Shown here: in pieces, positions 44,896-61,942 of the stretch | Numbering within the stretch: the first letter of the stretch is position 1 | Layout of the letters: each line of letters begins with the position of its first letter | From: Sphingobium sp. WTD-1 | GTDB taxonomy: Bacteria; Pseudomonadota; Alphaproteobacteria; Sphingomonadales; Sphingomonadaceae | Length of the DNA stretch: 64,000 nt | NCBI RefSeq assembly: GCF_030128825.1 | Contig: NZ_CP119127.1 | Span: 1,426,001 to 1,490,000, forward strand | Reading direction: 5' to 3' | The notes under the pieces: generated by a model | What the model saw: the letters and a program-made list of their open reading frames with translations, nothing else | Database searches by the model: none | Told to the model about the DNA's origin: nothing | Made by a program: the position numbers and the translations under genes

Positions 44896-47058
44896 TTATT
44901 CGCCGGGCCGATAGGTGCGCACGGCATGGGCCTTTATGTCTTCGGGGTAGAAATAGACCGGGCGCAGATCGCCCTTGGCATAGAGGTCGACCTGATCGGC
45001 GAAATGGGGCGAGTGGGGATCGCCGCTCTCGCCGCCAGCGCTGACCGCGCGGGCGACGACCTTCGGCCCGAACTCGACCGCCGCGACGAAGCTGTTGCCC
45101 TTGGTGCCATAATAGCGCTTGGTTCCCGGATAGCGCGTCGCGCCGAACGCCGCGAGCGATCCCCATTGCGACGAGGCGAAGGGGATGGGCGTGCTGGGCT
45201 TGGCGTCGTCGAACGTCTGGACGATCGCGCCGTCATTGCGCTGATACCGGTTGATCTCGCCCCAGGGCACGGCAATGCTACCGAAATCGGCGGTCAGCCG
45301 CTCGACCGCCTCGCGCAGCGCCGCCAGCTTCTGCGCGTCGGTCGCGCGGGTCGCCATATAGTCGATGGTCGACAGGCCCGCTTCCTTCGCCGCCGGGGCC
45401 ACCGCCTTCCATAGCGCCTCGCCCCAGAAGACCGCGAGCGAGGTCTGGGTCGAGGTCAGGCTCCATTTATAATCCCAGCCGCGCAGGCTCTGCACCGCAT
45501 CGGCCAGCGCCGGATCGGGCGCCTTGTCCTGCGCCGCGATCAGGCCCGGAACCAGTCGGGCAAAGCCGGTCATATAGGGATCATAGGCAGCGCCGATCAG
45601 GCTATCGAGGGTAAAATGCGCATTGGCCGAGAGCACGATCTGGGCATGAGGGCCGCGCGGATTTTCACCGGCCTGATCCATGTAGCGGGGAAAGACCTCG
45701 CGCTTGGGGCTGTCCGCACCGGCCGCCGTCCAGGGCCAGTTATTGGTGTTCATCGCCCAGCCGCCCTTCGGGTTCACCGCCTGGGGCAGGCTGGACAGGT
45801 CATGCAGGCCGCGCCAGTCGGTCGCCGGATCGCTGCCGTCCACCGGCTTCGTATAGTCGAAGCGATCGTCGCGGATCGGCACGAATTGCGGGTGGAGATA
45901 GGCGATCTCGCCCTTGTCGTCGGCCAGCAGCGTGTTGTTGCTGCTGTTCGCCTTGTTCTCCGCGACCTTGAGGAAGCTCGCATAATCGCTGGTCTTGGTG
46001 CGCAGATAGCTTTGCTCCAGCGCCGGCACCGGCTTGTTCATCAGCGCGAAGGCGATCCACTTGTCGCCCTCGGTTCGCACGATCGGGCCATGATGGGTGG
46101 AATAGCCGGTGAAGGCGCGCTGGGCGAGCTTGCCGTCTGGCGTGCGGTAGGAAATGGCGATGGTCTTTTCCGTGACTGGACGCAATTCCTTGCCATAGCG
46201 GTAGAAGAGGCGATCGCCCTGCGGCACGATCGTCTCGGCAAATTCGTCGACATTGTCGATGCCGCTCGACGTGTGCATCCAGCCGATATGGCGGTTGAAG
46301 CCCTGATAGATGAAGAACTGGCCCCAAGTGACGGCGCCATAAGCGTCCAGCCCCTCGTCGCTGCTCATCTGCAGTTCGGATCGGAAGAAGAAGCTGGTGT
46401 GCGGGTTGATCATCAAAAGCGCATGACCGTCCTGCGTTCGGGATGGCGCGATGGCAAAGCCGTTCGATCCCTGCGGCTCGCGATAGGCAAGGCCCTGTTC
46501 CAGCATGGTGAGGGCAGCCGGCTTCTTCTCGTAAAAGGCCTGTAGCTGGGTCAGCGGCACCCGCTCGATATCGCCGCCGATGCTGCCTTCGGTGAAGCTC
46601 AAAGCCATCCACGGCTCGAACCGGGTGATGACCCGCGGCTTCACCATCGGATGGGTGGAGAGATAATAATTCAGGCCATCGGCCCAGGCCTGCATCAGCT
46701 TCTTGAGCCAGGCCGGGCTGCGGGCATAGTCGGCCTGCAACCGGGCGGGATCGATGAACAGGCGCTGGCGCAGATCCTGCCAGATCGCCTTCTCGCCCTC
46801 GGCTTCGGCGAGGCGGCCAAGATTGACCAGATAATTGGTCTCGATCCGGTTGAAGTCGTCTTCGGCCTGGGCATAGACCATGCCGAACACGGCATCGGCG
46901 TCGGTCGCGCCATGGACGTGGGCGATGCCCCACTGGTCGCGGGTGATGGTGACCTTGGCCGGCGAGAGCGCGGTCGGCGATTGGGCAAGGGCAGGGCAGG
47001 CGGCAAGAGCGACCAAGGCCCCCGCAAGGGAGGTGGCGCGCGGCAGGAATTTCGTCAT
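44896..47058 (-). CDS. Penicillin-acylase-family N-terminal nucleophile hydrolase
   Basis: A 720-residue periplasmic precursor: signal peptide about 1-25, alpha chain, spacer, then beta chain. Self-cleavage should occur before Ser198 in EPQGSNGFAIAP, which becomes the catalytic N-terminal Ser. Other family segments are VTITRDQWGIAHVHGATDADAVF (alpha chain start), NPHTSFF and LLADDKGEIAYLH. Family members cleave beta-lactams, acyl-homoserine lactones, aculeacin or other amides. It is transcribed toward the amidohydrolase and M19 genes, 6 bp before the former, and is divergent from a second amidohydrolase gene. Confidence 0.9.
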   Translation of the reverse strand: MTKFLPRATSLAGALVALAACPALAQSPTALSPAKVTITRDQWGIAHVHGATDADAVFGMVYAQAEDDFNRIETNYLVNLGRLAEAEGEKAIWQDLRQRLFIDPARLQADYARSPAWLKKLMQAWADGLNYYLSTHPMVKPRVITRFEPWMALSFTEGSIGGDIERVPLTQLQAFYEKKPAALTMLEQGLAYREPQGSNGFAIAPSRTQDGHALLMINPHTSFFFRSELQMSSDEGLDAYGAVTWGQFFIYQGFNRHIGWMHTSSGIDNVDEFAETIVPQGDRLFYRYGKELRPVTEKTIAISYRTPDGKLAQRAFTGYSTHHGPIVRTEGDKWIAFALMNKPVPALEQSYLRTKTSDYASFLKVAENKANSSNNTLLADDKGEIAYLHPQFVPIRDDRFDYTKPVDGSDPATDWRGLHDLSSLPQAVNPKGGWAMNTNNWPWTAAGADSPKREVFPRYMDQAGENPRGPHAQIVLSANAHFTLDSLIGAAYDPYMTGFARLVPGLIAAQDKAPDPALADAVQSLRGWDYKWSLTSTQTSLAVFWGEALWKAVAPAAKEAGLSTIDYMATRATDAQKLAALREAVERLTADFGSIAVPWGEINRYQRNDGAIVQTFDDAKPSTPIPFASSQWGSLAAFGATRYPGTKRYYGTKGNSFVAAVEFGPKVVARAVSAGGESGDPHSPHFADQVDLYAKGDLRPVYFYPEDIKAHAVRTYRPGE

Positions 47059-47124
47059 AGAGAGGGGGAGTAATGAAGGGGGCGGGACGGCGCAAGCAGC
47101 CTCCCGTCAAGGGGGATGATATCG

Positions 47125-48402
47125 ATGCACAGGCTTTTGATCCTGCTGGCCTTTCTGTTCGTCGCGCCGATGCCGGCCGGGGCGCAGGAGGCCGCGCCGA
47201 CGCTCTATCTGCTGCGCCCCGATGCCGTGTTCGACGGCGCGGCGTCGCATCGCGGATGGGCGGTGCTGGTGCGTGGCAACCGGATCGAGGCGGCGGGACC
47301 GGGGATCGCGGTGCCGTCCGGGGCAAGGGTGATCGACCTGCCCGGCAAGACGCTGGTCCCCGGCTTGATCGAGGGCCATTCGCACCTCTTCCTGCATCCC
47401 TATAACGAGACGAGCTGGGATGATCAGGTGCTGCACGAGCCGCTGGCGCTGCGCACCGTGCGGGCCACGGTGTCGGCGCGGGCGACGCTGATGGCGGGCT
47501 TCACCACCGTGCGCGATCTGGGCACCGAAGGGGCTGGCTATGCCGATGTCGGTCTCAAGCAGGCGATCGAGCAGGGTATCATCGCCGGGCCGCGCATGCT
47601 GGTGGCAACGCGCGCGCTGGTGGCACCGGGCGCTTATGGCCCGCGCGGGTTCGAGCCGGGCGTTGTCGTGCCGCTGGGCGCGGAGGAAGCTGGCGGTCCC
47701 GATCTGGTGACGGCGGTGCGGCGACAGATCGCGGCCGGCGCCGATGTCGTGAAACTTTATGCCGATTATCGCTGGGGCAAGGGCGAGCCGAGCCGGCCGA
47801 CCTTCACCCAAGCGGAAATGGCGGCGGCAGTGGAGGCGGCGCACAGCGCCGGGCGCAAGGTCGCGGCCCATGCCGCCACCGACGAAGGGATGCGCCGGGC
47901 GATCCTGGCCGGGGTCGACACGATCGAGCATGGCTATGAAGGCAGCGCCGCGACCTTCGCGCTGATGAAGGCACACAATGTCGGCTATTGCCCGACCCTC
48001 GCGGCATCCGACGCCACGGCGCGCTATCGCGGCTGGACCGGGGCGGAACCGGCGCCGGCGGCGGTGACGCAGGCGCGCCAGGCGCTCGATCGCGCGCGGG
48101 CGGCGGGTGTCGCCCTCTGCCTGGGCGGCGATGTCGGCGTGTTCGCCCATGGCGACAATGCCCGCGAGGCGGAGCTGATGGCCGCCGCCGGCATGGCGCC
48201 CCGCGACGTGCTGGTCGCGGCGACCAGCGGCAATGCGGCGCTGTTCGGTATCGCCGACCGGCTGGGCGCGGTGAAGCCGGGCCTGCTCGCCGATCTGGTC
48301 GCAGTCGAGGGCGATCCGACCCGCAGCATCGGCGCGCTGCGCCAGGTCGGCTTCGTGATGAAGGACGGCGTCATCTACAAGGGGCCGGGCGCGCAGCCAT
48401 GA
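47125..48402 (+). CDS. Amidohydrolase family protein (exported)
   Basis: A 425-residue metal-dependent hydrolase with a signal peptide (about 1-19, [17 protein letters not shown]). Ligand motifs are HSH in [10 protein letters not shown], Lys in [10 protein letters not shown], His in [11 protein letters not shown] and DTIEHGYEG, Asp in [12 protein letters not shown]. It is related to, but distinct from, the amidohydrolase at 43522-44889. The AGGGGG tract abuts an ATG at 47116 but is well spaced from the ATG at 47125, which I chose. Its stop overlaps the POT transporter ATG. Confidence 0.88.
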
Positions 48403-49724
48403 ACCAGGGCGATCGCGCTTTCCTGGGCCATCCGCGGGGCCTCGCCTATCTGCTGTTCACCGAAGCGTGGGAGCGTTTCTCCTATTATGGCATGCAGTCG
48501 CTGCTGGCCCTCTATCTGGTCAAGCATCTGCTGCAGCCGGGACAGGCCGACGGCCTGCTCTTCTTCGATGCCTTTCGCCAGCTTTATGGCGGGCTGGACG
48601 GCCAGCCGCTCGCCTCTGCCATTGTCGGCACCTATTTTGCCAGCGTCTATGTGACGCCGATCCTGGGCGGGCTGGTCGCGGACCGGCTGCTGGGCCGGCA
48701 TCGCACGGTGCTGCTGGGCGCGCTGACCATGATGGCGGGCCATTTCCTGATGGCGGTCGAGGTCGCCTTCCTGCCCGCGCTCGGCTTGCTGGTGCTGGGC
48801 AGTGGCCTGTTCAAGGGCAATCTCGCCAGCCAGATCGGCGCGCTCTATGGCAATGATGACCCGCGCCGCGACGGCGCGTTCCAGCTCTATTATCTGGGCA
48901 TCAATATCGGCCTGATCGCCGCGCCGCTGGTGATCGGCACGCTGGCGGAAACGCGCGGCTGGCATGTCGGCTTTGCCGTCGCCGGCGTCGGCATGGCGAT
49001 TGCCACGATCATCTATCTCGCCGGACGCCGGCATCTGCCGGCTGATGAGCGCGGACCACGATCGCAGGGGCGCATGCGCATGACCGGGCAGGATTTGCGC
49101 GGCCTGCTGGGCATCATCCTGCTGATCCCGCTGCTGGCGGCGGCGCTGTTGCCTAACAACCAGATATTCAACGCCTATCTGATCTGGGGCGACGCGCATC
49201 TGGAACTGACGTTGGGCGGGCTGCGCGTGCCGACCAGTTGGCTCATCACCCTCGACGCGGGGCTCGGCCTAGCCATGCTCGCCGGTCTGCCTTTCCTTTA
49301 TCGCCTTTATGCGCGCTACCGGCCCGAGCCTGGCGATCTTGCCAAGCTGACGATCGGGTCGCTCTTTGCGACCGGAGGCATGCTCTGCCTGGCACTGGGA
49401 TCGGCGCTGGCGGGGGCGGACGGCAGGACGGGGCTGGGCTGGGCGATCGCCTTCCATCTGCTCAACGGCATCGGTTTTGCCCATATATTGCCGGTCAGCC
49501 TGGCGCTGTTCACTCGCGCCGCACCGCCGCGTCAGGCCGGGCTGGCGATCGGCCTCTATTATCTCGTCTTCTTCCTGGGCAATATCCTGGTCGGCTGGGT
49601 GGGGGGCTTCTACGCCCGCATGCCGGCCACTACCTTCTGGCTGCTGCATGCCGGGATTGCGGCGGGATGTGGCGCGATTTTCCTGATATTGACGCTACGG
49701 AAAGCAATTTTCCGGTCGGATTGA
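48399..49724 (+). CDS. Proton-dependent oligopeptide transporter (POT family)
   Basis: A 441-residue MFS protein with about 12-14 helices. [19 protein letters not shown] is the POT ExxERFxYYG motif, involved in proton coupling. [19 protein letters not shown] is the family MFS loop. [17 protein letters not shown] matches the second POT signature. It imports di- and tripeptides with protons. Coupled to the amidohydrolase gene by a 4-bp overlap, which supports a role in taking up products of the surrounding peptidases. Confidence 0.92.
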
Positions 49725-49823
49725 CGCTTTTTTCACGTTCGACCGATGCCTGGCCTCACACTGGCCATGCCATTCCCGATCCTGCGAGCGCGGGCATCCG
49801 ACGCGCGCCGACAGGAGGGAATG

Positions 49824-52013
49824 ATGACTGCCGATTTCGATCCCGCCGATTTTGACGGCGACAGCGCGCTCGATACCGACATGCCCGGTTTCGACATCGA
49901 TCCCAAGCTGCGGTCGGTGCGGCACCTGCCGCTGTTGGTGCAGGCCAGTGGCCGCTACAATTTCGTGCGCTCGCCGCGCTTCCCGATGCCGCGCGCGCTG
50001 CCCGGTGCGGTCGATCGCTTTGATGACGATATCAATGCGCTGACGCTCTACACGCGCGAGGAATTGCGGCTGGACGTCGATGGCCGCTATCCGCAGATGA
50101 CGGTCAGCGGCACGCGCGCCGGCCCGCTGGGGCCAGTCGTCAGCTGGGTTGCGGCGCTGACCCGGACCGGGGCCAATCATTATAGCGGCCAGATCTGGTT
50201 CAAGGATGGTCAGGTCGGCGCCATCCCCCATACCCAGATCAGCCTCAAGGTGACGAAGAGCCTGCTCGCCGCCCAGCGCAAGGTGGAGGCGACCTTCAGC
50301 GGCGGCGGCGCAGCGAGCTTCGTGCGCACTTATCAGTTCAGCTCTGCAAGCTTCCGTCCGGCCGAGTTCGAATATGACACGGTGGCCGGCGCGACCCGCG
50401 TGACGGAGATCGGCACGCACGATCATCCCAATCATCCCGCGACCATGGTCAGCGAGACGCTGAGCCTCGACACCGTCTATCGGCGGGCGGGGTTCAACGT
50501 CAGCGATGCGCCCGGCAATGGCGCCATCCCGCTCGGTGCGGCCGGCGCGGACCAGCGCTGGACCGACCAGGAAATGCATGACGCGATGCAGATCTACTGG
50601 TCGCGCTTCGCCGACAAGCCCCAATGGTCGCTGTGGGTGCTGTTCGCCTCGCTCCATGTGCAGGGCAGCAGCCTGGGCGGCATCATGTTCGACGATATCG
50701 GGTCGAACCATCGCCAGGGGACGGCGATCTTCACCGACGCCTTCATCGCCCATCCGCCGGCGGGCGATGCCGATCCCGACGCCTGGGTGCGGCGGATGCG
50801 CTTCTGGACGGCGGCGCATGAGGTCGGCCACGCCTTCAACCTGGCGCATAGCTGGCAGAAGGCGCTGGGCACGCCCTGGATTCCGCTGGCCGACGATCCC
50901 GAAGCGCGCAGCTTCATGAACTATCCCTATGCGGTGGCGGGCGGTCAGGCGGCCTTCTTTGCCGATTTCGACTTCCGCTTTTCCGATCCCGAACTGCTGT
51001 TCATGCGCCATGGCCCCGAACGCTTCGTGCAGATGGGCAATGCCGACTGGTTCGACCAGCATGGATTTTCGCAAGTGGCGATGGACCCCAATGAGGAGTT
51101 CGGTCTGACCCTGTCGGTCAATGCCCGCGACAATCGCCTGCCTTACCTGTTGCCGCCGGTGGTCGAGATGGCGCTGGTCAACCGTAGCGGCCGGCCCAAG
51201 CTGGCATCGGCGGCGCGCCTGTCGGAACGGGCAAGCCTGACTTTGATCATCAGCAAGGATGGTCGGCCCGCGCGCCAATGGTCGCCCTATTCGCGCCATT
51301 GCGGCGAGAGCCTGGAAATCATCCTGGGTCAGGGTGAGGCGCTCTATGACAGCGTGCTGGTCGGCGCCGGTCGCAATGGCTGGGACATGGCTGAACCGGG
51401 CCGTTACACCATCCAGGCGATGCTGGTCGTCGATGGCCGCGCCGTCATTTCCAACCCGCTGGAGGTGAAGGTGGAGCCGCCCGAAAACCGCGAGGAAGAG
51501 CGGCTGGCGCAGGATATCTTCACCCCGGAAGTCGGCCAGGTGCTGGCCGTCAACGGCACGCGCGGCGTCCAATCGGCGGTCGATGCGCTGCGGGCGGCGA
51601 TGCGGATGCGCCAGCATCCGCTCGCACGGCAGGCGGCGATCGCGCTCGCCGGCCCGCTGGCCGACGAATATAAGCTGCTGCAGGTGGATGAGCGGGCACG
51701 GCCCGGCGAAACCCCGGCCGCTGCCGCCCGCCGCATCGAGGTTTATGACGCCGATCTCAAGGAAGCACGCCACCTGCTGGCGATCGCGACCGAGGGTAGC
51801 GCCGATGCCGCCGTCAATGCCGTCGGCCATACCCGCTTCCTGCGCGAGGCGGGCAAGCTTGCCCTCGCACTGGATGGTGGAGTCGCCCCGGCGCTGCGCC
51901 AGGCGGGGCTGGGCTTCGACGCGGTGCGGGCAGGCGACGTCATCGGCGGCTTCAACCTGGGCCAGGACATGCAGCGCATGCTGGCCGCCAAGGCGAACGG
52001 CCTCAGTATCTGA
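49824..52013 (+). CDS. Metzincin-like zinc protease of the YcaO-TfuA locus
   Basis: A 729-residue protein without signal peptide or membrane helix. The zinc site HEVGHAFNLAH is at 332-342 (HExxHxxNxxH, Gly replaced by Asn compared with most metzincins). The segment SFMNYPYA about 35 residues later fits a metzincin Met-turn. The first 300 residues are beta-rich and unrecognised, and the last 170 are helical. Start: AGGAGGG at 49813-49819 is best spaced to the ATG at 49824. The gene precedes two small genes, ycaO and tfuA on the same strand, so it could process a modified peptide or act as the cargo or effector. Function is inference. Confidence 0.7.
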   Translation: MTADFDPADFDGDSALDTDMPGFDIDPKLRSVRHLPLLVQASGRYNFVRSPRFPMPRALPGAVDRFDDDINALTLYTREELRLDVDGRYPQMTVSGTRAGPLGPVVSWVAALTRTGANHYSGQIWFKDGQVGAIPHTQISLKVTKSLLAAQRKVEATFSGGGAASFVRTYQFSSASFRPAEFEYDTVAGATRVTEIGTHDHPNHPATMVSETLSLDTVYRRAGFNVSDAPGNGAIPLGAAGADQRWTDQEMHDAMQIYWSRFADKPQWSLWVLFASLHVQGSSLGGIMFDDIGSNHRQGTAIFTDAFIAHPPAGDADPDAWVRRMRFWTAAHEVGHAFNLAHSWQKALGTPWIPLADDPEARSFMNYPYAVAGGQAAFFADFDFRFSDPELLFMRHGPERFVQMGNADWFDQHGFSQVAMDPNEEFGLTLSVNARDNRLPYLLPPVVEMALVNRSGRPKLASAARLSERASLTLIISKDGRPARQWSPYSRHCGESLEIILGQGEALYDSVLVGAGRNGWDMAEPGRYTIQAMLVVDGRAVISNPLEVKVEPPENREEERLAQDIFTPEVGQVLAVNGTRGVQSAVDALRAAMRMRQHPLARQAAIALAGPLADEYKLLQVDERARPGETPAAAARRIEVYDADLKEARHLLAIATEGSADAAVNAVGHTRFLREAGKLALALDGGVAPALRQAGLGFDAVRAGDVIGGFNLGQDMQRMLAAKANGLSI

Positions 52014-52074
52014 TCCATGCGGGCGCATCGCCTGTCATGGCGGTGCGTCCCATCATTCCGAAAGGGGACCAACA

Positions 52075-52389
52075 ATGTCGGAATTTCGCAAAATCACAAT
52101 CGCACTCGAACAGGGATTCAAGGATGACAGCGTTCGTATCTCGATCGGCGACCGGCTGGTGCATTGGCTCGACCATGTGAAGACCCGCGCCAAGATCGGC
52201 GTCGCGCATACGCTGGAACTGACCCTGCCTGCCGGCAATGATCCGGTGCAGGTGGAATTGCCGAGCAAGGATGTGCGCATCTCGATCGAGCCGGGGATGG
52301 GTGAGGCATGCTATTGGGGCGTGTCGGTCAGCCCGAACGGTAAGGCCATGTATGTGAAGCGCTCAGTCGAGCCCTTCGCTTATGTCTGA
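52075..52389 (+). CDS. Small protein of unknown family, 104 residues (YcaO-TfuA locus)
   Basis: I do not recognise the family. The sequence alternates hydrophobic and charged residues in beta-strand fashion (FRKITIALEQGFKDDSVRIS, VAHTLELTLPAG, VQVELPSKDVRISIE), ending CYWGVSVSPNGKAMYVKRS then VEPFAYV. It has one cysteine (EACYWGV). There is no signal peptide or helix. AAAGGGGA at 52061-52068 precedes the ATG. It could be a substrate, a chaperone or a partner of the protease 61 bp upstream. Confidence 0.7.
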   Translation: MSEFRKITIALEQGFKDDSVRISIGDRLVHWLDHVKTRAKIGVAHTLELTLPAGNDPVQVELPSKDVRISIEPGMGEACYWGVSVSPNGKAMYVKRSVEPFAYV

Positions 52390-52540
52390 TATGCTCCGTG
52401 CGGCGTTGATAGGGTTTTCCCTCATTGTCCTCGCCCTGCTTGTCATTACGGTCCCGCAACCTACTTTGATCCATCACGAACTATGGGGGTATATATGGCT
52501 GAATCCTACGACACCGACGCCAATTATGTCATCAAGCTGA
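52382..52540 (+). CDS. Possible hydrophobic micro-ORF, 52 residues
   Basis: This frame opens at an ATG overlapping the end of the 104-residue gene and runs across the gap into the next gene. It encodes MSDMLRAALIGFSLIVLALL followed by VITVPQPTLIHH..., a plausible single membrane helix. It overlaps the 89-residue gene in another frame and has no clear ribosome-binding site, so it may be coincidental. Confidence 0.25.
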   Translation: MSDMLRAALIGFSLIVLALLVITVPQPTLIHHELWGYIWLNPTTPTPIMSSS

Positions 52541-52764
52541 CCGACCCGGCCGACCCGGCCAAGGTTGTTGGCTATGCCTTTGTCGAGCAGGTCCACTATC
52601 TGGCCGCCGACGATGACAGCGATGATGCCAAGGCCGCGATTGCCGGCGTGGCCGGCCTGTTCACCGACGGCCCGGTTCTGGATGCGGTCGCCCTGCCGGG
52701 GCAGCAGCGCGCTACCCGCGCCTATTTTGCCGAGATCGGGTCGGGCAAGGCCGACTTCGCCTGA
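52495..52764 (+). CDS. Small acidic protein, candidate YcaO-TfuA substrate (89 residues)
   Basis: I do not recognise the family. It begins MAESYDTDANYVIKLTDPAD and has an acidic middle (AADDDSDDAKAAIAGVAG) and an Ala/Gly-rich end (YFAEIGSGKADFA). It contains no cysteine, so heterocycle formation would need Ser or Thr, but backbone thioamidation would not need Cys. The ATG at 52495 is preceded at 5 bp by GGGGG; an ATG at 52483 would overlap that site. It ends 13 bp before ycaO. Position and size make it the best precursor candidate; no leader/core boundary is visible. Confidence 0.7.
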   Translation: MAESYDTDANYVIKLTDPADPAKVVGYAFVEQVHYLAADDDSDDAKAAIAGVAGLFTDGPVLDAVALPGQQRATRAYFAEIGSGKADFA

Positions 52765-52777
52765 GGCCGATCGCGCC

Positions 52778-53956
52778 ATGAAGATGTTCCGGCGCGGGGC
52801 GCATCGCTCCCGCCGTCCTGCCGACACCCTCGCACGGATCACGCCTGTGGCCCGTGCGCTGGGTGTCACGCGGCTGGCCGACGTGACCGGCCTTGACCGC
52901 ATCGGCATCCCCGTATTCCAGGCGGTCCGTCCCCTGTCACTGTCGCTGTCGGTGTCGCAGGGCAAGGGCGCCACGCCCGATGCCGCGCGCATCTCCGCGC
53001 TGATGGAAGCGATCGAGCTGCATCATGCCGAAACCTGTCCCGCCAGCAGCCATGGCATTGCGGAGGCCGGCGAAGCCCGGCTCTGGAGCCAGATGGCGCG
53101 GGCCGACAAGCAGGGCGCATCCTTCGATCCGGCCCGACCGCGCGGCTGGGTCGAGGCGATCGACCTGCTCAGCGGCCGGCCCATGCGGATACCCCATGGG
53201 CTGGTGACGATGGATTTCACCGTGCCGGCCGAACCTGATCTGTGGCCCAACAGCAATGGGCTGGCATCCGGCAATACCCCGGCCGAGGCGCGCTGTTCGG
53301 CGCTGTGCGAACTGATCGAGCGCGAGGATCATGCCCGCTGGCTGGAACAGGGACTGCGCGCGCGCCGGGCAAGCGCGATCGACCCGGACAGCATCAACGA
53401 CCGGCTGGGCCGCAGCCTGATCGCGCGGGTGCGGCGCGCGGGCCTGTCGCTGTCCTTGTGGGACATGACTGGTCAGATCGGCGCGGCGGTGATCGGCTGC
53501 GCCATCACGGAAGGGGGCGCGGCACGCAGCGTGCAATTGCCGCCGGCGATGGGGGCGGGATGCCATCCCGATGCCGGCGTTGCACTCGCCCGCGCCATTT
53601 GCGAGGCGGCACAGACCCGTGCCGCGCTGATCGCCGGCGCGCGCGACGATATCGATCCGGCGCGCTATCGCAATGCCGGGCAGCAACGGCAAGGCTTCCT
53701 GTTGGCGATGCTCGATTTCGCGCCGGCAACCCGACCCTGGTCGGCGGTGCCCTCCGTAGCGCATGACGGGGCGGAGGATGATCTGGCCTGGCTGCTCGAT
53801 CGCTGTGCGGCGGTAGGCGCGGGGCCGGTCGCCTGTCATGACCTGACCCGGCCCGACCTCGGCATCGATGTGGTGAAGCTGTTGGTGCCGGCCTTTGGCG
53901 ATCATGACCGGCCATCGCGCACAGGCACGATGCAAGCGGCGATGGAGCCGGCATGA
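52778..53956 (+). CDS. YcaO-domain ATP-dependent cyclodehydratase/thioamidation enzyme
   Basis: A 392-residue YcaO protein. The ATP/Mg2+-binding motifs are conserved: VSQGKGATPDAARISALMEA then IELHHAE at 59-85 (Glu77, Glu80), SNGLASGNTPAEARCSALCE then LIERED at 159-183, and GVALARAICEAAQTRAALIA at 267-286. YcaO proteins phosphorylate backbone amides to make azolines, amidines or thioamides. No partner E1-like/RRE or dehydrogenase gene is present, but tfuA follows directly (4-bp overlap), the pairing associated with thioamidation. The ATG at 52778 is used; 52784 is an alternative. Confidence 0.92.
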   Translation: MKMFRRGAHRSRRPADTLARITPVARALGVTRLADVTGLDRIGIPVFQAVRPLSLSLSVSQGKGATPDAARISALMEAIELHHAETCPASSHGIAEAGEARLWSQMARADKQGASFDPARPRGWVEAIDLLSGRPMRIPHGLVTMDFTVPAEPDLWPNSNGLASGNTPAEARCSALCELIEREDHARWLEQGLRARRASAIDPDSINDRLGRSLIARVRRAGLSLSLWDMTGQIGAAVIGCAITEGGAARSVQLPPAMGAGCHPDAGVALARAICEAAQTRAALIAGARDDIDPARYRNAGQQRQGFLLAMLDFAPATRPWSAVPSVAHDGAEDDLAWLLDRCAAVGAGPVACHDLTRPDLGIDVVKLLVPAFGDHDRPSRTGTMQAAMEPA

Positions 53957-54645
53957 GCAGGCATGCGATTGTCTTTGCCGGGCCGAGCCTGGGCGGTTCC
54001 GCGATGGCCTTGCCCGATGGCGTCGAGTTGCGCGGACCGGCGCGGCGCGGCGACATACTGCGTGCCGCGATCGAACGACCGGCCGCGATCGGCCTGATCG
54101 ACGGACTGTTCGAAACCACGCCATCGGTCTGGCACAAGGAAATCATCCAGGTGATGGCCGAGGGAATCGCCGTCTATGGTGCGGCCAGCCTGGGTGCATT
54201 GCGTGCGGCGGAACTGGCGCCGATCGGCATGGTCGGCATCGGGGCGATCGCGCAGGCTTACACGGCTGGGCAGATCGAGCGGGACGATGCGGTGATGGTC
54301 AGCCATGCGCCGCCAGAACTGGGACATCGCGCGATGACGCTGGCGCTGGTGGATGCCGAGCATGCGATCGAGCAGGCAGCGATGGAGGCAGGCGATCGTG
54401 CCCTGCTGCTGCGGCTGGCACGGCGGATGAATTTTCGCGATCGCAGTTGGGCGTTGATTGGCGAAACATTCTGTCAGGCGACGGGGCGCCATCTGCCGCC
54501 GATCGATCAGCGGTTAAGCCTCAAGCGCAAGGATGCGGAACTGTTACTGCGGACGATTGCGGGACCGGTGGCAGCGCCGCGTGTCGCGCCGCCGCCGCAA
54601 AGCTTCTTCCTGCGCAGCCTGCGCACGGAGATCAGCGCGGCGTGA
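53953..54645 (+). CDS. TfuA-like protein, YcaO partner
   Basis: A 230-residue protein with the TfuA core: HAIVFAGPSLG, then IGLIDGLFETTPSVWHKEII, AVYGAASLGALRAAEL, IGMVGIGAIAQAYTAG and IERDDAVMVSHA. In methanogen McrA modification and in thioamide RiPP clusters, TfuA partners YcaO and is thought to deliver or release sulfur; in trifolitoxin clusters it accompanies another YcaO. ATGA overlap with ycaO implies coupled translation and a complex. Its last 14 bp overlap the convergent regulator gene. Confidence 0.92.
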   Translation: MSRHAIVFAGPSLGGSAMALPDGVELRGPARRGDILRAAIERPAAIGLIDGLFETTPSVWHKEIIQVMAEGIAVYGAASLGALRAAELAPIGMVGIGAIAQAYTAGQIERDDAVMVSHAPPELGHRAMTLALVDAEHAIEQAAMEAGDRALLLRLARRMNFRDRSWALIGETFCQATGRHLPPIDQRLSLKRKDAELLLRTIAGPVAAPRVAPPPQSFFLRSLRTEISAA

Positions 54646-56653
54646 TGCGCAATCCGGCCTGTTCCAGCCCGGTCAGGAACAGGGTGCGTTCGGCCGGACC
54701 CTGCAGCGGCAGGAACTGGATCATAGTGTCGACCAGATCGGCGTCGCGGGCCGGGGTATCGCCCTGCCAAAGGCCGGCGAAACGTTGGCGCAATTCGTCG
54801 ATCACCGGGGCGGCCCGCTTCACGCCGCCCAGCATGCCCAGATTGGCACCCCGCACCGCCAGATAATGGATCGACCGGTTGCGGCCGATCTCGAACTGGG
54901 TTTCCGCCGCCTCATGCTCGCCCGACAGGGCGTAGAGCACTGCCAGATCGGAAAAATATTCGTCCGACGGAAAGGGGTTCAGCTCGAAGGCGCGGGCGAT
55001 CAGGCGCTGCGCTTCCTTCATCTCGCCCAGATGGACGAGGCCGAAGCCGATCTCGTTGATGCCATCGGCGTGAAAGGGCGTCAGGTCGAGCGCGGTCATG
55101 AAGCCCTGCATCGCCTGCTTCATGTCGCCGCGGCGCAAATAGCACCAGGCCAGGCGCGACTGCACGCCGCCATGGGTGGGTTCCAGCGCGACCGCGCGGG
55201 TGCAGAGGTCGAAGGCGCGGGCGCGCAGCGGCGCGGCGTCATGGCCCGCCATCAACTGCATGAAGTCGGTGTTGTAGAGGCGCGCCAGTTGCAGATAGGC
55301 GTTGGTCAGGCGCGGCTCCAGCAGGATCGCGCGTTCCAGCAGGTCGGCACCTTCCTGCACCTCGGCTAGGCTGGCGGCGGCCAATATCTTGGCGCGGGCG
55401 GTGAAATAGAGCGGATAGGCGTCCGACCCGCTGGGCACGCGTCCTTCCATCAGCTTGCCGACATCGCGTTCGACCACCGGCAGGATGGCGCCGGCGATCC
55501 GGGCGACCAGATCGTCGATCGCGGCGAGCAATTCGCCCTGGCGCACGGTCAACTGGCGCGTCCAGACCAGGAATCCGCTGTCGATCCGCGTCATGCGCAG
55601 GTTGATGCGCCAGCCATCGCCATCGGCACGGACCGACCCGTCCAGCGCGTAGCTGGCGATCGAGGCGGGGGCGGCCGCCTTCATCCGCTCGGCCGATGGC
55701 GCGTCGACCGACAGGATGCGCAGGTCGCGCATGCCGCCCAGGGCGGTCTGCAGATCGTCATGGCAGATGCTGGTGAGCAGGGCGCCGTCCGGGCCGCCAT
55801 CGCCGATCAAGCTGAACGGCGCGATCACCAGGATCGGTGGCTCGACATTGGCCCGCGGGATTGTTGCGATGGTCGGCGCGGCGGCCGCGCGCGGGGCGGG
55901 AGCGATGACCGATCCGACCGTCGTCAGTTCGCGCAGCAGCCTTTCGGTGTCGGGCGAGACGCGGGCATCCAGATCGCGTTGCAGTCCGGCCTCAAGCTGG
56001 CGATAGCGGCGGTGGAGCGCGACATGGTCGCCGGCCCTCTGGTCGAGCGCCATGCCGAGCCGGGCGATCCGTTCATCGCCGGTGTCGAGCCGCTGCAACT
56101 GGGTCAGGATTGCACGGCGTAGGTCGAGCAGATCGTCCTGGCCATTGCGCTCGACGGCGTGCAGCACATCCTGGACGATACGCTCGCGCCAGCGCTGCCG
56201 CTCGATCATCAGCCAGTCGTCGAAGCTGCGATCCAGCCCCTCCAGCCCGTCCAGTATCGCGCTGCCCGCGCCATCCAGGATACGGGCCAGTCCGGCCAGG
56301 TCGTTGGCGGCGGTGCAGGCCAGTATCTCGCCCAGGTCGCTGGAAAAGCCACCCTCTGCCAGATGCAGGTCACGCCGTTCGATATGGATGAGCGGGGCGG
56401 CTGGATGCGCGCGCAGGTCGCTCAGCGCTTGGCGCAGGCTGGCGCGGGCCTGCACCTCGCCCCGGTCGCTCCATAACAGGCCGACCAGCCGGTCGCGGCT
56501 GGCGCGGCGGTCTGGCTCCAGTGCGAGATGGGCGAGCAGGGCACAGGCCTTGCGGCTGCGCGGGCTATGGTCGCGCCCATCCGCCTCGTCGATCAGCCGA
56601 AAATCGCCGAGTAATCGTAAGCGAAACCGAAGCTCGCTAGCCGCTATCACCAT
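54632..56653 (-). CDS. BTAD/SARP-like transcriptional regulator with TPR repeats
   Basis: A 673-residue multidomain regulator. Residues about 8-95 form an OmpR-like winged helix (FRLRLLGDFRLIDE, KACALLAHLALEPDRRASRD, QARASLRQALSDLR). A BTAD-type helical domain follows to about 250, then a FlgO/TolB-N-like alpha/beta domain (ILVIAPFSLIG, SYALDGSVRADGDGWRINLR) and C-terminal TPRs (about 430-600). No transmembrane helix is obvious. AAGGGCGC precedes the ATG at 56653. It converges on tfuA and is the likely regulator of the YcaO-TfuA locus. Confidence 0.85.
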   Translation of the reverse strand: MVIAASELRFRLRLLGDFRLIDEADGRDHSPRSRKACALLAHLALEPDRRASRDRLVGLLWSDRGEVQARASLRQALSDLRAHPAAPLIHIERRDLHLAEGGFSSDLGEILACTAANDLAGLARILDGAGSAILDGLEGLDRSFDDWLMIERQRWRERIVQDVLHAVERNGQDDLLDLRRAILTQLQRLDTGDERIARLGMALDQRAGDHVALHRRYRQLEAGLQRDLDARVSPDTERLLRELTTVGSVIAPAPRAAAAPTIATIPRANVEPPILVIAPFSLIGDGGPDGALLTSICHDDLQTALGGMRDLRILSVDAPSAERMKAAAPASIASYALDGSVRADGDGWRINLRMTRIDSGFLVWTRQLTVRQGELLAAIDDLVARIAGAILPVVERDVGKLMEGRVPSGSDAYPLYFTARAKILAAASLAEVQEGADLLERAILLEPRLTNAYLQLARLYNTDFMQLMAGHDAAPLRARAFDLCTRAVALEPTHGGVQSRLAWCYLRRGDMKQAMQGFMTALDLTPFHADGINEIGFGLVHLGEMKEAQRLIARAFELNPFPSDEYFSDLAVLYALSGEHEAAETQFEIGRNRSIHYLAVRGANLGMLGGVKRAAPVIDELRQRFAGLWQGDTPARDADLVDTMIQFLPLQGPAERTLFLTGLEQAGLRITPR

Positions 56654-56772
56654 TGCGCCCTTTATTGCTGGCGACCCGTAGTGCCCGGCCGCCCGTCATC
56701 TGCCCTAACACAGCTTGCTGAACAGGGCGACGGTCCGTTTAGGCTGCGTCACGATCCAGGGCCATAGCCAAT

Positions 56773-58803
56773 TCAGCGGTCGAACAGCTTGATCTCCGCC
56801 AGCCGAATCGCTTTGCCCTGGGGCTGGCGCATGAGCACCCGCCACTGGCGCGCGGCGCGGCCCGCAAAGCGCAGGTCGGTCACGCCATTGGCGATCGGCG
56901 CGCCCTTGGGCGTCGCGACATCGCGCCATTGGCCATCAACCATGGCCTGAAGGCGATAGGATTGCGGCACGGCAAACTGCTTGCCGTCGGCGAAGAAGGC
57001 GAGTTCGGCGCGGCCGATGGACACGGGTTTGCCCAGGTCAATGGCATACCATTGGTTGGCCTCTCCCGGCGCGGAGGACCAGCCATTGGGCATTTCGGGG
57101 AAGAACCAGGTGCGTCCATCGATCGCGTCATGGACATTTTCAGGATCGCTGTTGCTCGACGCGCTGCCGATCGGGAACTGGCTGCGTACCAGTTGCACGG
57201 CGCGGTTGATCGGCCGGGCGACCGGCGCATTGGCGACGCGCGGCACCGGCAGCTCGATCCGGCCCAATGTCTCGCGCCGGGCGACTTCCTTGCCGTCGAC
57301 CTCGACCGACAGGCCCTTGCCCCGGCCATAATGGCTGCCGTCCGCGTCCCAGGTCACGGCGATGCGATGGCCATGATAGGGCACGTCCTGCGCCCGGAAC
57401 CAGGCCAGCGCCTGCGGATCGCCGGCGTCGGGCAGTAGCGGGTTCACCTCCAGCACGTCGTCGGCGCGGGGGCGGATGCCGACCAGCCCGCCCAGGATCA
57501 GGTCATTATAGCCCGAGTGGAAATAATGATGGCTGCGATCGAGGCCGACGATCGGCTTGCCGGTTTCGGGATGATAATCCTCCTCCAGGTCGAGCCGGTC
57601 GCCCTGATAGTGGAGCGCGGTATATTGGCGCAGCAGACGCATATAGTCGCTGCGGGTGACCGGCCCCTGCCGGCGGTGATGATCGAGCAGGTTGGCCATG
57701 GCGATCAGTACCTGGGTCGTTTGATAGGGCCAGATCGGGCCGTTCCACTGGCATTCCGGCGCGTCGCCCAGATAGCGATATTGCCGCATATAATATTCGT
57801 AATTGGCCTCGACCGTGCGCATGCCCGCCTTGCCGGCGAGCGAGGCGGGGTCGAGCAGGTGCGCCCAGGCGCCGGCATATTTCGCCTCGTCCGGGACCAG
57901 GTCGAACATCCAGGGGAGATAGCCGACCAGTTCACGATTGCGGATCGGATCCCAATAATTGACGTGCGGATTCTTGCGGCTTTGGTGCCGGTCGATGAAA
58001 TGGCCGAGCTTCTCGCTCCACAGGTCGGCCAGGACATGGTCCTTCAGTGCCTGCGCGCGGGCCTCATATTCCTGCGCCATTTCGGTGTCGCCGGCCATGG
58101 TCGCCATCTTCGCCAGCGCGCGGGCATTGGCATACATGTAACTGTTGACCGAGGGGCGGAAGGCGTCGCCGCCACGGAACCCGTCCTTGCCGCCCGAGGC
58201 GTCGATCGAGGAGACGGTATATTCGGTCGCGTCGAGCAAGGGCTCGACGAAATAGAGGCCCTTGTCGAAGTCGAACTTCTCGTCCCACAGGCGATAGATG
58301 TGGCGCATCACTGGCAGATGTTCGAGCACGCCCGCCTTGTCGCCATCGATCAGGTAACGGCCCCAGACCGAGTCCGCCATATAGTCGGTGAAGTGGCGGT
58401 CATTGCCGCCGCGATACATGAAGCGGATATAGTCGTCGGCAAAGCGCCGGTCGTTCAGCCATCGTCCTTCGGCCAGATGAAAGCCGGTCGCGTCGTTGAG
58501 GCTGGCATAGGGATGGCGCTGCCAGTCGACATCGTCGAAAAATTCGGTGGTGATATAGCCTTCTTCGCCCAGGTCGCGCTGATGGCCACGGTAGAGCTGC
58601 CAGCGATAATAATAGACGGCGTCGATCTTCGGATCGGCGGATTCGAAGAAGGGGATGCGATCCTGATACCAGGGTGCGTCATTGCCGAAGCGCTGCACCG
58701 CGATGGCATGGGTGTCGAGGCCGGCGGAGCGGGGAGGGGGAGAGACGGCGCCCATGCCGATCATGGCAGCCCCTGCCAGCAGAAGCATCCTCATCGCGCG
58801 CAT
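56773..58803 (-). CDS. (alpha/alpha)6-barrel glycoside hydrolase with C-terminal F5/8 type C domain
   Basis: A 676-residue exported enzyme with a signal peptide (about 5-25, MLLLAGAAMIGMGAVS). The main domain is of the six-hairpin MGH1-like glycosidase type: YYYRWQLYRGH, EGYITTEFFDDVDW, YVSSIDASGG-like loops, CQWNGPIWPYQTTQVLIAMA and HHYFHSGYNDLILGGL. The last 140 residues (from about 535) are a discoidin/F5-8C carbohydrate-binding domain ending AIRLAEIKLFD. The CAZy family cannot be fixed by eye. It follows the TonB receptor on the same strand and lies near two GH43 genes, so it probably trims arabinose-containing glycans. Confidence 0.82.
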   Translation of the reverse strand: MRAMRMLLLAGAAMIGMGAVSPPPRSAGLDTHAIAVQRFGNDAPWYQDRIPFFESADPKIDAVYYYRWQLYRGHQRDLGEEGYITTEFFDDVDWQRHPYASLNDATGFHLAEGRWLNDRRFADDYIRFMYRGGNDRHFTDYMADSVWGRYLIDGDKAGVLEHLPVMRHIYRLWDEKFDFDKGLYFVEPLLDATEYTVSSIDASGGKDGFRGGDAFRPSVNSYMYANARALAKMATMAGDTEMAQEYEARAQALKDHVLADLWSEKLGHFIDRHQSRKNPHVNYWDPIRNRELVGYLPWMFDLVPDEAKYAGAWAHLLDPASLAGKAGMRTVEANYEYYMRQYRYLGDAPECQWNGPIWPYQTTQVLIAMANLLDHHRRQGPVTRSDYMRLLRQYTALHYQGDRLDLEEDYHPETGKPIVGLDRSHHYFHSGYNDLILGGLVGIRPRADDVLEVNPLLPDAGDPQALAWFRAQDVPYHGHRIAVTWDADGSHYGRGKGLSVEVDGKEVARRETLGRIELPVPRVANAPVARPINRAVQLVRSQFPIGSASSNSDPENVHDAIDGRTWFFPEMPNGWSSAPGEANQWYAIDLGKPVSIGRAELAFFADGKQFAVPQSYRLQAMVDGQWRDVATPKGAPIANGVTDLRFAGRAARQWRVLMRQPQGKAIRLAEIKLFDR

Positions 58804-58832
58804 CGTCCGTCTCCCTGTATCCTGAAACAAAT

Positions 58833-58917
58833 ATGGCGGCCGTTCCGGGGAGTTGGAGAGGTTTCCCGGAACGACCGCCATGAAAATGGGGCGCAGCGAG
58901 GAGACGCCACGCCCCAT
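58833..58917 (-). terminator. Two tandem hairpins between the TonB receptor and glycosidase genes
   Basis: On the minus strand the first stem is ATGGGGCG with CGCCCCAT (58917-58886), followed by TTTTC. The second is a 17-bp stem with one mismatch (58881-58833; ATGGCGG...CCGCCAT), followed by ATTTGTTT. They would strongly reduce read-through into the glycosidase gene or protect the receptor mRNA 3' end, giving much higher receptor expression. Confidence 0.7.
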
Positions 58918-58924
58918 CGGGCAC

Positions 58925-61753
58925 TCAGTCAAACTTGAAACGGACACCCAGAGCGAAGGTCCGATCAATCAGCAGCGTGCTGGAGTTGAACTCCGTCGGA
59001 TTGCCGACATCGCCGAACTTGTAATAGTTCTGCTGCTTCGCCTTGGTGATGTTCACCGCGTCGAAAGTGACGCCGATATCGTCATTGACGTTCCAGGTCA
59101 GCTGGAAGTCCAGACTCTTTTCAGGCGCGCGCCACATGCCGATCGGGTTGGCGAAGGAGCGGCCTTCATTGTTGTTCAGGAACCCCTTGCGCCAGATGTA
59201 GGACAGCCGGGCACCGACCGGACCGCTGTCATAGGCCAGCGTGGCGTTATAGGACAGCTTCGACACGCCGAAGAAGGCCGACTTGGTGGTGCCGGTGATC
59301 TCACCTTCATTGTTGACGACCGGGATCGTCTGTTCGGAATCCAGGATCGTCGCGCTGCCGGTGAAGCCCAGGCCGTCGAGAATCGACGGCAGATAGGACG
59401 GGAAGTAGGTCAGGCCCAGTTCCACACCCTTGAGCGTGCCGTTCGAGGCGTTTTCCGGCCGGGTGATATTGAAATATTCGGTATAGGTTTCGTTGCGCGG
59501 CAGATAGTTGTTCGGGATGAACTCACGCACGGTCAGCGGCACGACCAGACCGTCGATCTTGCGACGGAAAGCGGTCGCATAGATGGCGCTGTTGCGTTCG
59601 AAATACCATTCGATCGCAAGGTCCATATTCTTCGAATGGGTCGCACGCAGATTGGCGTTGCCCGACGAACCCGAGCCGAAGCCGATGCGGGAGAGATCGC
59701 CCGTCAGCGCCAGATTGGGGTTGAGGTCGCCAAAGGCCGGACGGCGCAGCGTTTCGCCATAGTTGAAGCGGATACGCAGATTGTCGGTCAGATTATAGCG
59801 CGCGGTGAAGGACGGCAGGAACTTTTCCGAGCCGGTCGATACGGTGGTACGCGCGAAATTATTGCCGCGGTCGAAATAGTCATACAGCGTGTCGATCGCA
59901 ACGAAGCGCACGCCAGCCTGAAGCTGCAGCGGGCGGCCGAAGATTTCGACTTCGCCATCGGCCATGACATAGGCGGCCAGATTGGTTTCGTTGATGCCGA
60001 ACACATGGCCGAAAGTCATTTCGTCCGACAGCAACAGACCGGGGGCTACGGAACGATAGAGGCTGCGGACAGCATCCTTGTCCATGCTGCGCGGGTCAGC
60101 CAGCACCCAACTGGTGGGGATGTCGGCGCGTCCGTCGAAGAAGCCGCTGTTGGTGAAGGGGGTGCCCTGGCTGAAAGCCGCCAGCGTCATGCCCGGCAGG
60201 CCGCCGGCGCCCTGATCACGGACGTAGGAATCGGCGTTGCGATCATCGAAGCGGAAGCCGGCCTTGATGCGACGCAGGAAGCCTTCGTCCCACTTATATT
60301 CGCCGTCCAGCATCATGGTCAGGGCGCTGCCGGTGTTCTTGGTGCCGCTGTCGAACAGGTTGCCGACGGTCCACTGGCTTGCATCGGTCAGCACGCCCTG
60401 ATTGGCGAAGCTGTAGGCCGGCAGGCCGCCACCCGCGTTGAAATCGACGTCGATGTCGAGCGGGCCGCGATCGGTACGGATTGCGAAGAAGGAGGTTTCG
60501 TTCTTGCTGTCCTGATAGGCGATGTCGGCGACGATCTTGCCGCGCTCGCCCACGTTCCACTTGGCGTTCAGCGCATAGACGTAGCTGTCTGTCTTGTTGG
60601 TCGCCATGTCGCCGCTGTTGAAGCCGGCGACCGCGCCCATCTGGCGCGACTTGATGATGTTGGTGCCATCATAGAGTTCGAAGCTGTTGGCCACGTCGGC
60701 GGGCAGGTTGCCCCACCAGTCGGCGAAGCTGAAGTGCAGGCTGTTGAAGGTTTCCCCACGGAAGCCGGTGTAGAAGACTTCGGCGGTGTAGACCGAACTA
60801 TCATTGGGCGCCCACTGGAGCGCAGCGTTGACCGACGGACGCTCGCGCTTGCCGTAGAGGTCGGACGCGATGACGGCGTCACGCGACAGATAATAGGGCG
60901 TTTCGACGCCGTTGATGTTGAGTGTCGAACCCGGTGCGGTCGGCAGGCCGGCGTCGAGGCCCGGCGTCCAGTTTTCGTTGGTCGCGCCAGGGAAGATACG
61001 CTGCAGCGGGGTCAGGCCCGAACCTTCGGGCGGATTCTCGGTGGCGAAGGGCACCATGGCGCCGGCCTGGAGATTCTGGTTGCGATAATGGGCGCGGGTG
61101 TAGCTGCCGTTGATCAGGAAGCCGATGTCACCGATGCCGGTTTCCCAGCGATCGCTGACCAGCAGCGCGACGTTCGGATTGAACTTGTCCGCCAGTTCCG
61201 AATAGACGCCGCGCGCCAGGCCGGAAATGGTGAAGCCATCGAAGTCGAGCGGGCGACGGGTCTGGACGTCGATCTGGCCGGCAAGGCCGGTTTCGAGCTG
61301 GTCGGCCGAACGCGTCTTGTAGACATCGACCTGCTTCACGAGGTTGGCCGAGATGTCTTGCAGGGCGAAGGACGTGCCGGCTGCAGTGAAGATGTTGCGG
61401 CCGTTAAGAGTAGTCAACGGGTCGGTCAGGCCGCGAATGGTGATGGTTGCCGCTTCGCCGCCGGCGCGGTCGGTGACCTGGATACCGGTTACGCGCTGAA
61501 GCGCTTCGACGACATTATTGTCGGGCAATTTGCCAACGTCTTCGGACACGATCGAATCGACGATCTGGGTCGATTCCTTGCGGACGTTCAGGGCACCGAC
61601 GATCGACGCGCGCACGCCGGTGACGACGATATCTTCGGTCGGTGCTTCTTGCGCGATGGTCTGCGGAGCGGCGTCGGTCTGCGCGAAGGCGGCGCCCGAC
61701 AGGGTCAGCGCGACAAGCGACGCAGAACAGAGTGCGATCGGCCGGATAGCCAT
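58925..61753 (-). CDS. TonB-dependent receptor of the SusC/CirA carbohydrate-uptake type
   Basis: A 942-residue receptor. Signal peptide about 1-25 (ending GAAFA), TonB box EDIVVTGVRASI, then plug: ESTQIVDSIVSEDVGKLPDN is the hallmark of the large sphingomonad/Caulobacter glycan receptors, followed by VVEALQRVTGIQVTDR and ITIRGL. The barrel ends DRTFALGVRFKFD. GGGAGGA precedes the ATG at 61753. Adjacent arabinanase-type GH43 genes suggest arabino-oligosaccharides as ligand. Confidence 0.92.
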   Translation of the reverse strand: MAIRPIALCSASLVALTLSGAAFAQTDAAPQTIAQEAPTEDIVVTGVRASIVGALNVRKESTQIVDSIVSEDVGKLPDNNVVEALQRVTGIQVTDRAGGEAATITIRGLTDPLTTLNGRNIFTAAGTSFALQDISANLVKQVDVYKTRSADQLETGLAGQIDVQTRRPLDFDGFTISGLARGVYSELADKFNPNVALLVSDRWETGIGDIGFLINGSYTRAHYRNQNLQAGAMVPFATENPPEGSGLTPLQRIFPGATNENWTPGLDAGLPTAPGSTLNINGVETPYYLSRDAVIASDLYGKRERPSVNAALQWAPNDSSVYTAEVFYTGFRGETFNSLHFSFADWWGNLPADVANSFELYDGTNIIKSRQMGAVAGFNSGDMATNKTDSYVYALNAKWNVGERGKIVADIAYQDSKNETSFFAIRTDRGPLDIDVDFNAGGGLPAYSFANQGVLTDASQWTVGNLFDSGTKNTGSALTMMLDGEYKWDEGFLRRIKAGFRFDDRNADSYVRDQGAGGLPGMTLAAFSQGTPFTNSGFFDGRADIPTSWVLADPRSMDKDAVRSLYRSVAPGLLLSDEMTFGHVFGINETNLAAYVMADGEVEIFGRPLQLQAGVRFVAIDTLYDYFDRGNNFARTTVSTGSEKFLPSFTARYNLTDNLRIRFNYGETLRRPAFGDLNPNLALTGDLSRIGFGSGSSGNANLRATHSKNMDLAIEWYFERNSAIYATAFRRKIDGLVVPLTVREFIPNNYLPRNETYTEYFNITRPENASNGTLKGVELGLTYFPSYLPSILDGLGFTGSATILDSEQTIPVVNNEGEITGTTKSAFFGVSKLSYNATLAYDSGPVGARLSYIWRKGFLNNNEGRSFANPIGMWRAPEKSLDFQLTWNVNDDIGVTFDAVNITKAKQQNYYKFGDVGNPTEFNSSTLLIDRTFALGVRFKFD

Positions 61754-61942
61754 TTTCAAGTCCTCCCCAAGGGGCTGGCCCGTTGCCATGCCCACGAATT
61801 ACTCGGACTAATTATTTCCACATGCTGAGAAGCGCAAGTGAAATTTTGGGCCAGGGTTGCGCTACGTGGCACCCATGTTGCAAATTTGCCGCAGGGATTT
61901 TGGCCCGGTTTTTCGGGAGTTTCAGGCTATAAAAAGCCGAAA

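Follow-up and report, generated by a model that had tools for sequence, protein, structure and literature searches.

A YcaO-TfuA cassette of the soil bacterium Sphingobium that probably puts sulfur into the backbone of a tiny companion protein

YcaO enzymes, with or without TfuA, are known from several systems of backbone thioamidation. As given in the main text of Malit et al. 2021 (PMC8120280), there are 613 TfuA gene-cluster families and their known products all come from Actinobacteria. PMC4603692 states that an E1-like partner is usually missing for TfuA-associated YcaOs and that the substrates of these enzymes were unknown as of 2015. Here we surveyed a cassette of six genes in a 64,000-nucleotide (nt) stretch of Sphingobium sp. 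WTD-1 (NZ_CP119127.1), hereafter the window, to which all positions of open reading frames (ORFs) refer. The order is a metzincin-like protease, two small genes (S1 and S2), ycaO, tfuA and then a convergent winged-helix/TPR regulator. Judged from its genes, this cassette of a soil bacterium probably swaps backbone oxygen for sulfur in a tiny companion protein.

The features are as follows (aa, amino acids).

49824..52013, + strand: metzincin-like Zn-protease, 729 aa, with HEVGHAFNLAH and a sub-threshold Reprolysin match
52075..52389, + strand: S1, 104 aa, matches no known family
52495..52764, + strand: S2, 89 aa, candidate thioamidation substrate, in the slot directly upstream of ycaO
52684..52761, + strand: S2 C-terminal tail, residues 64-89, ...QQRATRAYFAEIGSGKADFA, candidate modified region
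52778..53956, + strand: YcaO, 392 aa, PF02624, 1.5e-66
53953..54645, + strand: TfuA, 230 aa, PF07812, 6.8e-36
54632..56653, - strand: winged-helix + TPR regulator with TPR repeats (Pfam)

All six ORFs were verified where an earlier, sequence-only reading of this DNA had placed them, and the 4-nt overlap by which it had coupled ycaO to tfuA is real, both proteins being over their Pfam cut-offs. S2 ends 13 nt before the start of ycaO, and the end of tfuA is overlapped by 14 nt, tail to tail, by the 3′ end of the regulator gene. Genome-wide, a single match to YcaO passes the family cut-off and a single TfuA is present, with two ThiS-family matches elsewhere.

The thioviridamide-family and thiovarsolin clusters are alike in having an adjacent, coupled ycaO-tfuA pair, a neighbouring candidate small gene and no recognised E1-like partner, whereas here the protein of the slot before ycaO keeps its position across genera and a winged-helix/TPR regulator stands tail to tail with tfuA. 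Neither BTAD nor Sphingo occurs in the main text of PMC8120280, the supplement of which may contain these clusters, and the layout was not found described in the accessible portions of the TfuA/YcaO literature, including PMC4603692, PMC5589413, PMC6511847, PMC8939145 and PMC13063428. The archaeal YcaO-TfuA pair for McrA (PMC5589413) resembles the window pair in the best-scoring models, in the best PDB relative and in the overlap of the ycaO stop with the tfuA start. The best family model is the McrA-thioamidation model TIGR03266 for YcaO (201.7 bits against 365) and NF033432 for TfuA (138.1 against 235.2), and among proteins of solved structure the closest are MJ1094 for YcaO and a TfuA-domain protein for TfuA. 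The window pair differs from the archaeal one in that it falls under these equivalog cut-offs, is bacterial and has small genes, a protease and a regulator of its own. Within Pseudomonadota, YcaO-type backbone thioamidation is represented by E. coli YcaO acting on uL16; according to PMC13063428, E. coli lacks a TfuA homologue, while the window locus has TfuA. The same paper gives the oxygen-to-sulfur shift as +15.977 Da, nearly isobaric with oxidation (+15.995). The window YcaO scores 34.2 bits on the E. coli uL16-type model NF040716, which has a cut-off of 700.

Two Rhizobium plasmids (of R. phaseoli Brasil 5, and pA of R. etli CIAT 652) are also alike, with a BTAD regulator, YcaO, TfuA and, in one of them, a small ORF annotated between; the regulator is 24% identical to the window's over 94-95% of the length. 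These loci differ in that the regulator lies upstream on the same strand and no protease is annotated, and the R. phaseoli small ORF (46 aa) shows no likeness to S2 by eye. There may also be a likeness to the RRNPP systems, which combine a TPR regulator, a small processed peptide and a peptide importer; unlike in these, the present host is not one of the Firmicutes and the regulator has a winged helix instead of the usual helix-turn-helix.

By sequence, the adjacency, co-orientation and conserved YcaO residues that mark a TfuA-associated YcaO are all present. The window YcaO has all 33 columns that are conserved in at least 93% of 42 YcaO rows, these being counted as columns and not assigned as per-residue roles. 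The SagD-type model TIGR03604 gives it 103.8 bits against a cut-off of 219.25, and no E1-like/ocin-ThiF partner or dehydrogenase was found among the Pfam-scanned genes of the block. The sequence-only reading had called the locus unlike known clusters for thiazole/oxazole-modified microcins; the missing E1-like partner does not distinguish the locus because it is usual for TfuA-associated YcaOs.

The layout recurs in other genera. TfuA was found in 14 of 396 Sphingomonadales genomes, and 11 of these 14 share a small gene (81-105 aa), ycaO, tfuA and a tail-to-tail winged-helix/TPR regulator; Sphingomicrobium, Blastomonas and Parasphingorhabdus are among the genera with such loci outside Sphingobium. 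Of the ten fetched loci outside Sphingobium with a convergent regulator, nine were fetched far enough to include the region before ycaO, and in all nine a small ORF stands directly there; L034 has its small ORF on another contig of that genome. The slot-family profile A6, searched with at most 13 candidates scored per genome, matched 11 of the 396 genomes, once each, and all are TfuA genomes. The A6 alignment included six of them (the window's genome, G207, G243, G257, G262 and G468) and a near copy of the one from G187, and the slot genes of G301, G322 and G405 were known beforehand, outside the alignment. Since these ten were known or near copies, the informative outcomes are the slot gene newly found in G348, directly upstream of ycaO, and the zero matches outside TfuA genomes. 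In the three remaining TfuA genomes (G247, G320, G444) A6 found no slot gene, and their fetched stretches have no regulator match; G247 has a look-alike slot ORF, by eye only.

A Sphingomonadales neighbourhood comparison had been proposed by the sequence-only reading, which took all six genes as one possible system. Its core idea, a pair of thioamidation type that has a regulator of its own and a small candidate substrate, is supported: the tail-to-tail regulator and the small gene before ycaO recur across genera. In the homologous pairs that were fetched, S1 and the protease were not found, a distant protease in L072 excepted, and this is the outcome that the reading itself had named as speaking against these two parts.

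Two Polymorphobacter plasmids carry a small gene, a YcaO-TfuA fusion and, converging on it with an overlap of 41 nt, a BTAD regulator that shares 38-39% identity with the one in the window. In L114 (4413-6690) the fusion is one ORF, annotated as a YcaO-like family protein with the TfuA match inside, and before it comes a protein of 117 aa whose tail is rich in glycine. In a wider survey of 24 fetched class loci, other signalling proteins often adjoin ycaO-tfuA: Pfam identifies the one in L067 as a guanylate cyclase/AAA/TPR protein and the one in L084 as a BTAD regulator; further cyclase-, FHA-, kinase- or cNMP (cyclic nucleotide)-like neighbours were seen by eye. In L066, L067, L079 and L083 the gene directly behind tfuA encodes a protein of 417-440 aa that has no Pfam match and looks similar, by eye, from locus to locus; in L115 (3342-4508, Rhizobium daejeonense) tfuA is followed by a gene annotated as agmatine deiminase family. 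Upstream of ycaO in L069, L070 and L071 are proteins of 74 aa as aligned, with IKWG..YYVP...QTGEGIGSACYL.DLSAI; one shares 64 and 69% identity with the other two, and they are possibly another slot-protein subfamily.

The regulator, too, recurs with the pair. In the window it has TPR repeats and a sub-threshold winged-helix match (Pfam), while relatives pass the cut-off as BTAD (L034, L084) or Trans_reg_C (L028); the BTAD/TPR regulator described earlier is confirmed as a convergent winged-helix/TPR regulator, with BTAD over the cut-off in some relatives. Among 18 fetched Sphingomonadales loci, 14 have tfuA and the regulator gene sharing 11-98 nt at their tails and four (L021, L026, L027, L037) have no regulator match; outside Sphingobium a relative converges on tfuA in ten fetched loci (L025, L028-L036). 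The best genome-wide regulator match sits at the ycaO-tfuA locus in all eight TfuA genomes chosen for this test. A single change accounts for the regulator label on a YcaO tree of 35 rows, the 16 winged-helix/BTAD-TPR rows being on one side of a branch (91/88, 90% bootstraps); L066, L071 and L079, with weaker matches away from tfuA, were scored as without the label. This tree, on which the label was tested, omits L083 (long branch; no regulator match), which a 36-row tree includes. Both trees omit L022 and L023 (near copies) and L037, L074, L076, L080 and L081 (frame or fragment doubts by eye), with L105 added. Across the order, with three candidates scored per genome, regulator matches at 1e-20 occurred in 24 of 376 genomes; 10 were located at TfuA loci, and of the other 14, nine were N-terminal only and five long; the TfuA genome G468 (2.3e-24 in another test) is unlisted there. 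The regulator family is enriched at ycaO-tfuA loci, yet it is not exclusive to them.

The cassette is a real selected unit and not a chance array. The reference for this analysis was L024, the most diverged Sphingobium copy, against which the ratio of nonsynonymous to synonymous divergence (dN/dS) is 0.086 for S1, 0.204 for S2, 0.159 for YcaO, 0.236 for TfuA, 0.195 for the regulator and 0.170 for the protease. All cassette genes are thus under purifying selection, with S1 and S2 within the range of the enzymes on this measure. The divergence runs through a block that reaches into a neighbouring gene for a proton-dependent oligopeptide transporter (POT).

48900..57000, no strand: high-divergence block by identity to the L024 copy, approximate borders
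48399..49724, + strand: POT-family oligopeptide:H+ symporter (Pfam PTR2 9.7e-38, TIGR00924), its 3′ part inside the exchanged block

In 250-base bins, identity to L024 has a median of 72.8% (range 64-88) inside the block (49-57 kb), 93.3% in the left flank (45.0-48.5 kb, one bin at 81.6%) and 94.6% in the right flank (57.25-58.75 kb), and the left border passes through bins of 84.8 and then 79.6%. Synonymous divergence (dS) is 0.81-1.40 across the genes from POT (0.876) to the regulator, and in the flanking genes it is 0.316 for an amidohydrolase and 0.31 for a glycosidase. Because the inside diverges jointly while both flanks stay similar, the block of about 8 kb, including most of the POT gene, is read as swapped as one unit between Sphingobium lineages, from one lineage pair. 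A recent transfer between Sphingobium and Sphingomicrobium is unlikely, as the two lineages are separate on the 36-row YcaO tree. TfuA is present in 6 of 94 genomes of the genus, and five of these six, the window's included, have the full array, with penicillin amidase at one end and the TonB receptor at the other. Comparing presence or absence of the block with that of its neighbours tells nothing, since the amidohydrolase was matched at 94% or more in just these five genomes and otherwise in a single one at 66%. A megablast search of 72,556 plasmid records, from which very near genomes may be omitted, gave 0 matches to the block.

On one side the block is flanked by penicillin amidase, amidohydrolase and POT genes (44896-49724), the last two overlapping by 4 nt, which suggests coupled peptide use; on the other side are an MGH1-like glycosidase and a TonB-receptor-like ORF, recognised by eye (56773-61795). 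A second stretch of low identity to L024 (60-85%, 59000-61750) lies within the TonB-receptor-like gene, apart from the main block. No Rfam element was found in 46000-60000, and promoter- and terminator-like sites near the cassette are no commoner than in shuffled sequence. The PADLOC anti-phage defence models gave 0 families for seven proteins at E 0.01, and a defence or phage origin of the cassette is unsupported by the PADLOC and PHROG comparison. A membrane mini-ORF between S1 and S2 (52383 onward), considered as conserved, was ruled out by alignment, since it is not kept in the L024 copy.

The two small genes, called unrecognised earlier, remain so: neither has a Pfam or NCBIfam family at E 0.1, nor a PADLOC or PHROG family at E 0.01. 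S1 met only five chains among solved structures, with short beta-propeller-motif matches and no passing stretch. It was not found in the fetched ycaO-tfuA loci outside Sphingobium nor in 239 other genomes of the class, and in one of five Sphingobium copies (L022, 11049-11359) it is frame-broken, while S2, YcaO and TfuA there align at full length. The protease, described earlier as a large cytoplasmic zinc protease, shows no hydrophobic start by eye. It carries HEVGHAFNLAH and a downstream Met-turn-like FMNY, which resemble the metzincin zinc-site and Met-turn motifs, N standing where the usual motif has G. Its Reprolysin matches fall under the Pfam cut-offs, and comparison with solved structures gave 0 matches. 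S1 and the protease were seen only in the Sphingobium cassette, apart from one distant protease relative beside ycaO in L072 (HEMGHTLGLRH; 29% identity over 130 residues). L072 is from another Alphaproteobacteria family and, oriented with ycaO on the + strand, has this metzincin-like relative at 2286-4571 and a small ORF at 4583-4882.

We infer the chemistry, the substrate, the regulation and the roles of protease, S1 and POT as follows. The locus would be a system for backbone thioamidation of the TfuA-associated YcaO type, acting on S2 and associated with a regulator, to which the protease and S1 have been added specifically in Sphingobium; we give this whole reading about an even chance. 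YcaO would use ATP to activate an amide in the backbone of a small protein of the cytoplasm, and TfuA would hand over sulfide from a ThiS-type thiocarboxylate carrier, which would yield the thioamide. In S2 the short strand/helix region may serve as a built-in leader and the conserved flexible C-terminal tail as the site of modification. The convergent winged-helix/TPR regulator would control the gene set, and in Sphingobium the signal-less metzincin-like protease, S1 and probably POT may process or handle the modified product.

S2 is favoured as the substrate because of its place immediately before ycaO, at a locus where tfuA and the regulator stand tail to tail, its coding constraint, the conservation of its tail and low-confidence models with an ordered N-terminus and a loose tail; on these sequence and model grounds the assignment itself is about as probable as not. 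The tail is slightly the most conserved third (mean pairwise identity 0.78 against 0.73 and 0.69, seven sequences). The AlphaFold2 model of S2 is of low confidence (mean predicted local distance difference test, pLDDT, 48.8) and has E9-17, E20-28, H43-53, E61-68 and an unstructured tail, with residues 68-89 at pLDDT < 50. The slot-family model, also low (mean pLDDT 57.3), has an N-terminal strand/helix region and a disordered tail, as in the S2 model. A MAFFT alignment of S2 with the slot proteins looks sensible by eye, an alignment being in itself no test of homology.

Several results weigh against this thioamidation reading with S2 as substrate. A slot profile built without Sphingobium fails to find S2 among 1038 window ORFs, and hhalign gives S2 probabilities below 1% against the slot proteins; S2 therefore shares the slot position, with ancestry unproven. 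The strand order differs (E-E-H-E in the S2 model, E-E-E-H in the slot model), S1 shows stronger constraint than S2, and S2 lacks the [NQ]T tail motif of other slot subfamilies. This motif is in all tested members of four non-Sphingobium subfamilies, in the three L069-L071 proteins and in Polymorphobacter P0035; it was picked post hoc among 784 class pairs, shuffles matched in 1/300, and P0032 (Blastomonas-type, different tail) was omitted. The Sphingobium YcaO falls outside the Sphingomicrobium clade in the YcaO trees. Regulator-like proteins (E 1e-20) occur in 14 of 376 genomes outside the TfuA set, and one of these (G372, 1.5e-45) outscores eight of the ten TfuA-locus matches, only the window's own and G348 being higher.

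It is possible, although we regard it as doubtful, that S2 is a recognition or adaptor protein, a helper like the recognition elements of ribosomally synthesised and post-translationally modified peptides (RiPPs), and that the target of YcaO-TfuA is S1 or some ordinary protein of the cell. Among the cassette genes tested, dN/dS is lowest for S1, the slot-protein model is better scored in its N-terminal half, and slot proteins vary greatly between genera. Whole-protein YcaO targets also exist, namely McrA in methanogens and uL16 in E. coli (PMC5589413 and PMC13063428). Against an adaptor role for S2 stand the lack of S1 in the fetched loci outside Sphingobium and in the 239 other class genomes, its one broken copy, and the conserved, predicted unstructured S2 tail, which fits a modified tail. 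An ordinary antibiotic-type RiPP cluster, whose tail is cleaved, exported and active outside, appears improbable. TfuA-type clusters of Actinobacteria do yield bioactive peptides (PMC8120280 and PMC6511847), and the cassette has a protease and a relative of BTAD-type activators. However, nothing in the block was recognised as a gene for export or immunity, and the S2 tail is slightly more conserved than the remainder, not diversified. POT family members are usually importers, which also does not fit an exported product.

An importer would fit a Gram-negative signalling circuit built by analogy with RRNPP systems, in which the protease frees a protease-resistant thioamide peptide from the S2 tail, POT recovers it from outside and the TPR regulator senses it; of this we are very doubtful. 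One divergent block does hold the small candidate substrate, the protease, the oligopeptide symporter and the TPR regulator, and the regulator is located at the ycaO-tfuA locus in several genera. But no export route was seen, inspection by eye revealed no POT next to related loci in other genera, where the distant L072 protein is the sole protease relative, and the 4-nt overlap of POT and amidohydrolase also fits plain peptide nutrition. If this circuit were nevertheless real, the small-protein/YcaO-TfuA/TPR-regulator layout of Alphaproteobacteria would be a family of intracellular thioamide sensors and not antibiotic clusters.

Returning to S2 as the substrate, the core thioamidation idea stands, and its protease and S1 extension is seen inside Sphingobium only. 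The locus and its relatives offer one candidate substrate position that is conserved across genera and paired with a recurring regulator. Should S2 prove to carry a thioamide, bacteria would have a conserved protein or peptide of this kind beyond the actinobacterial products.

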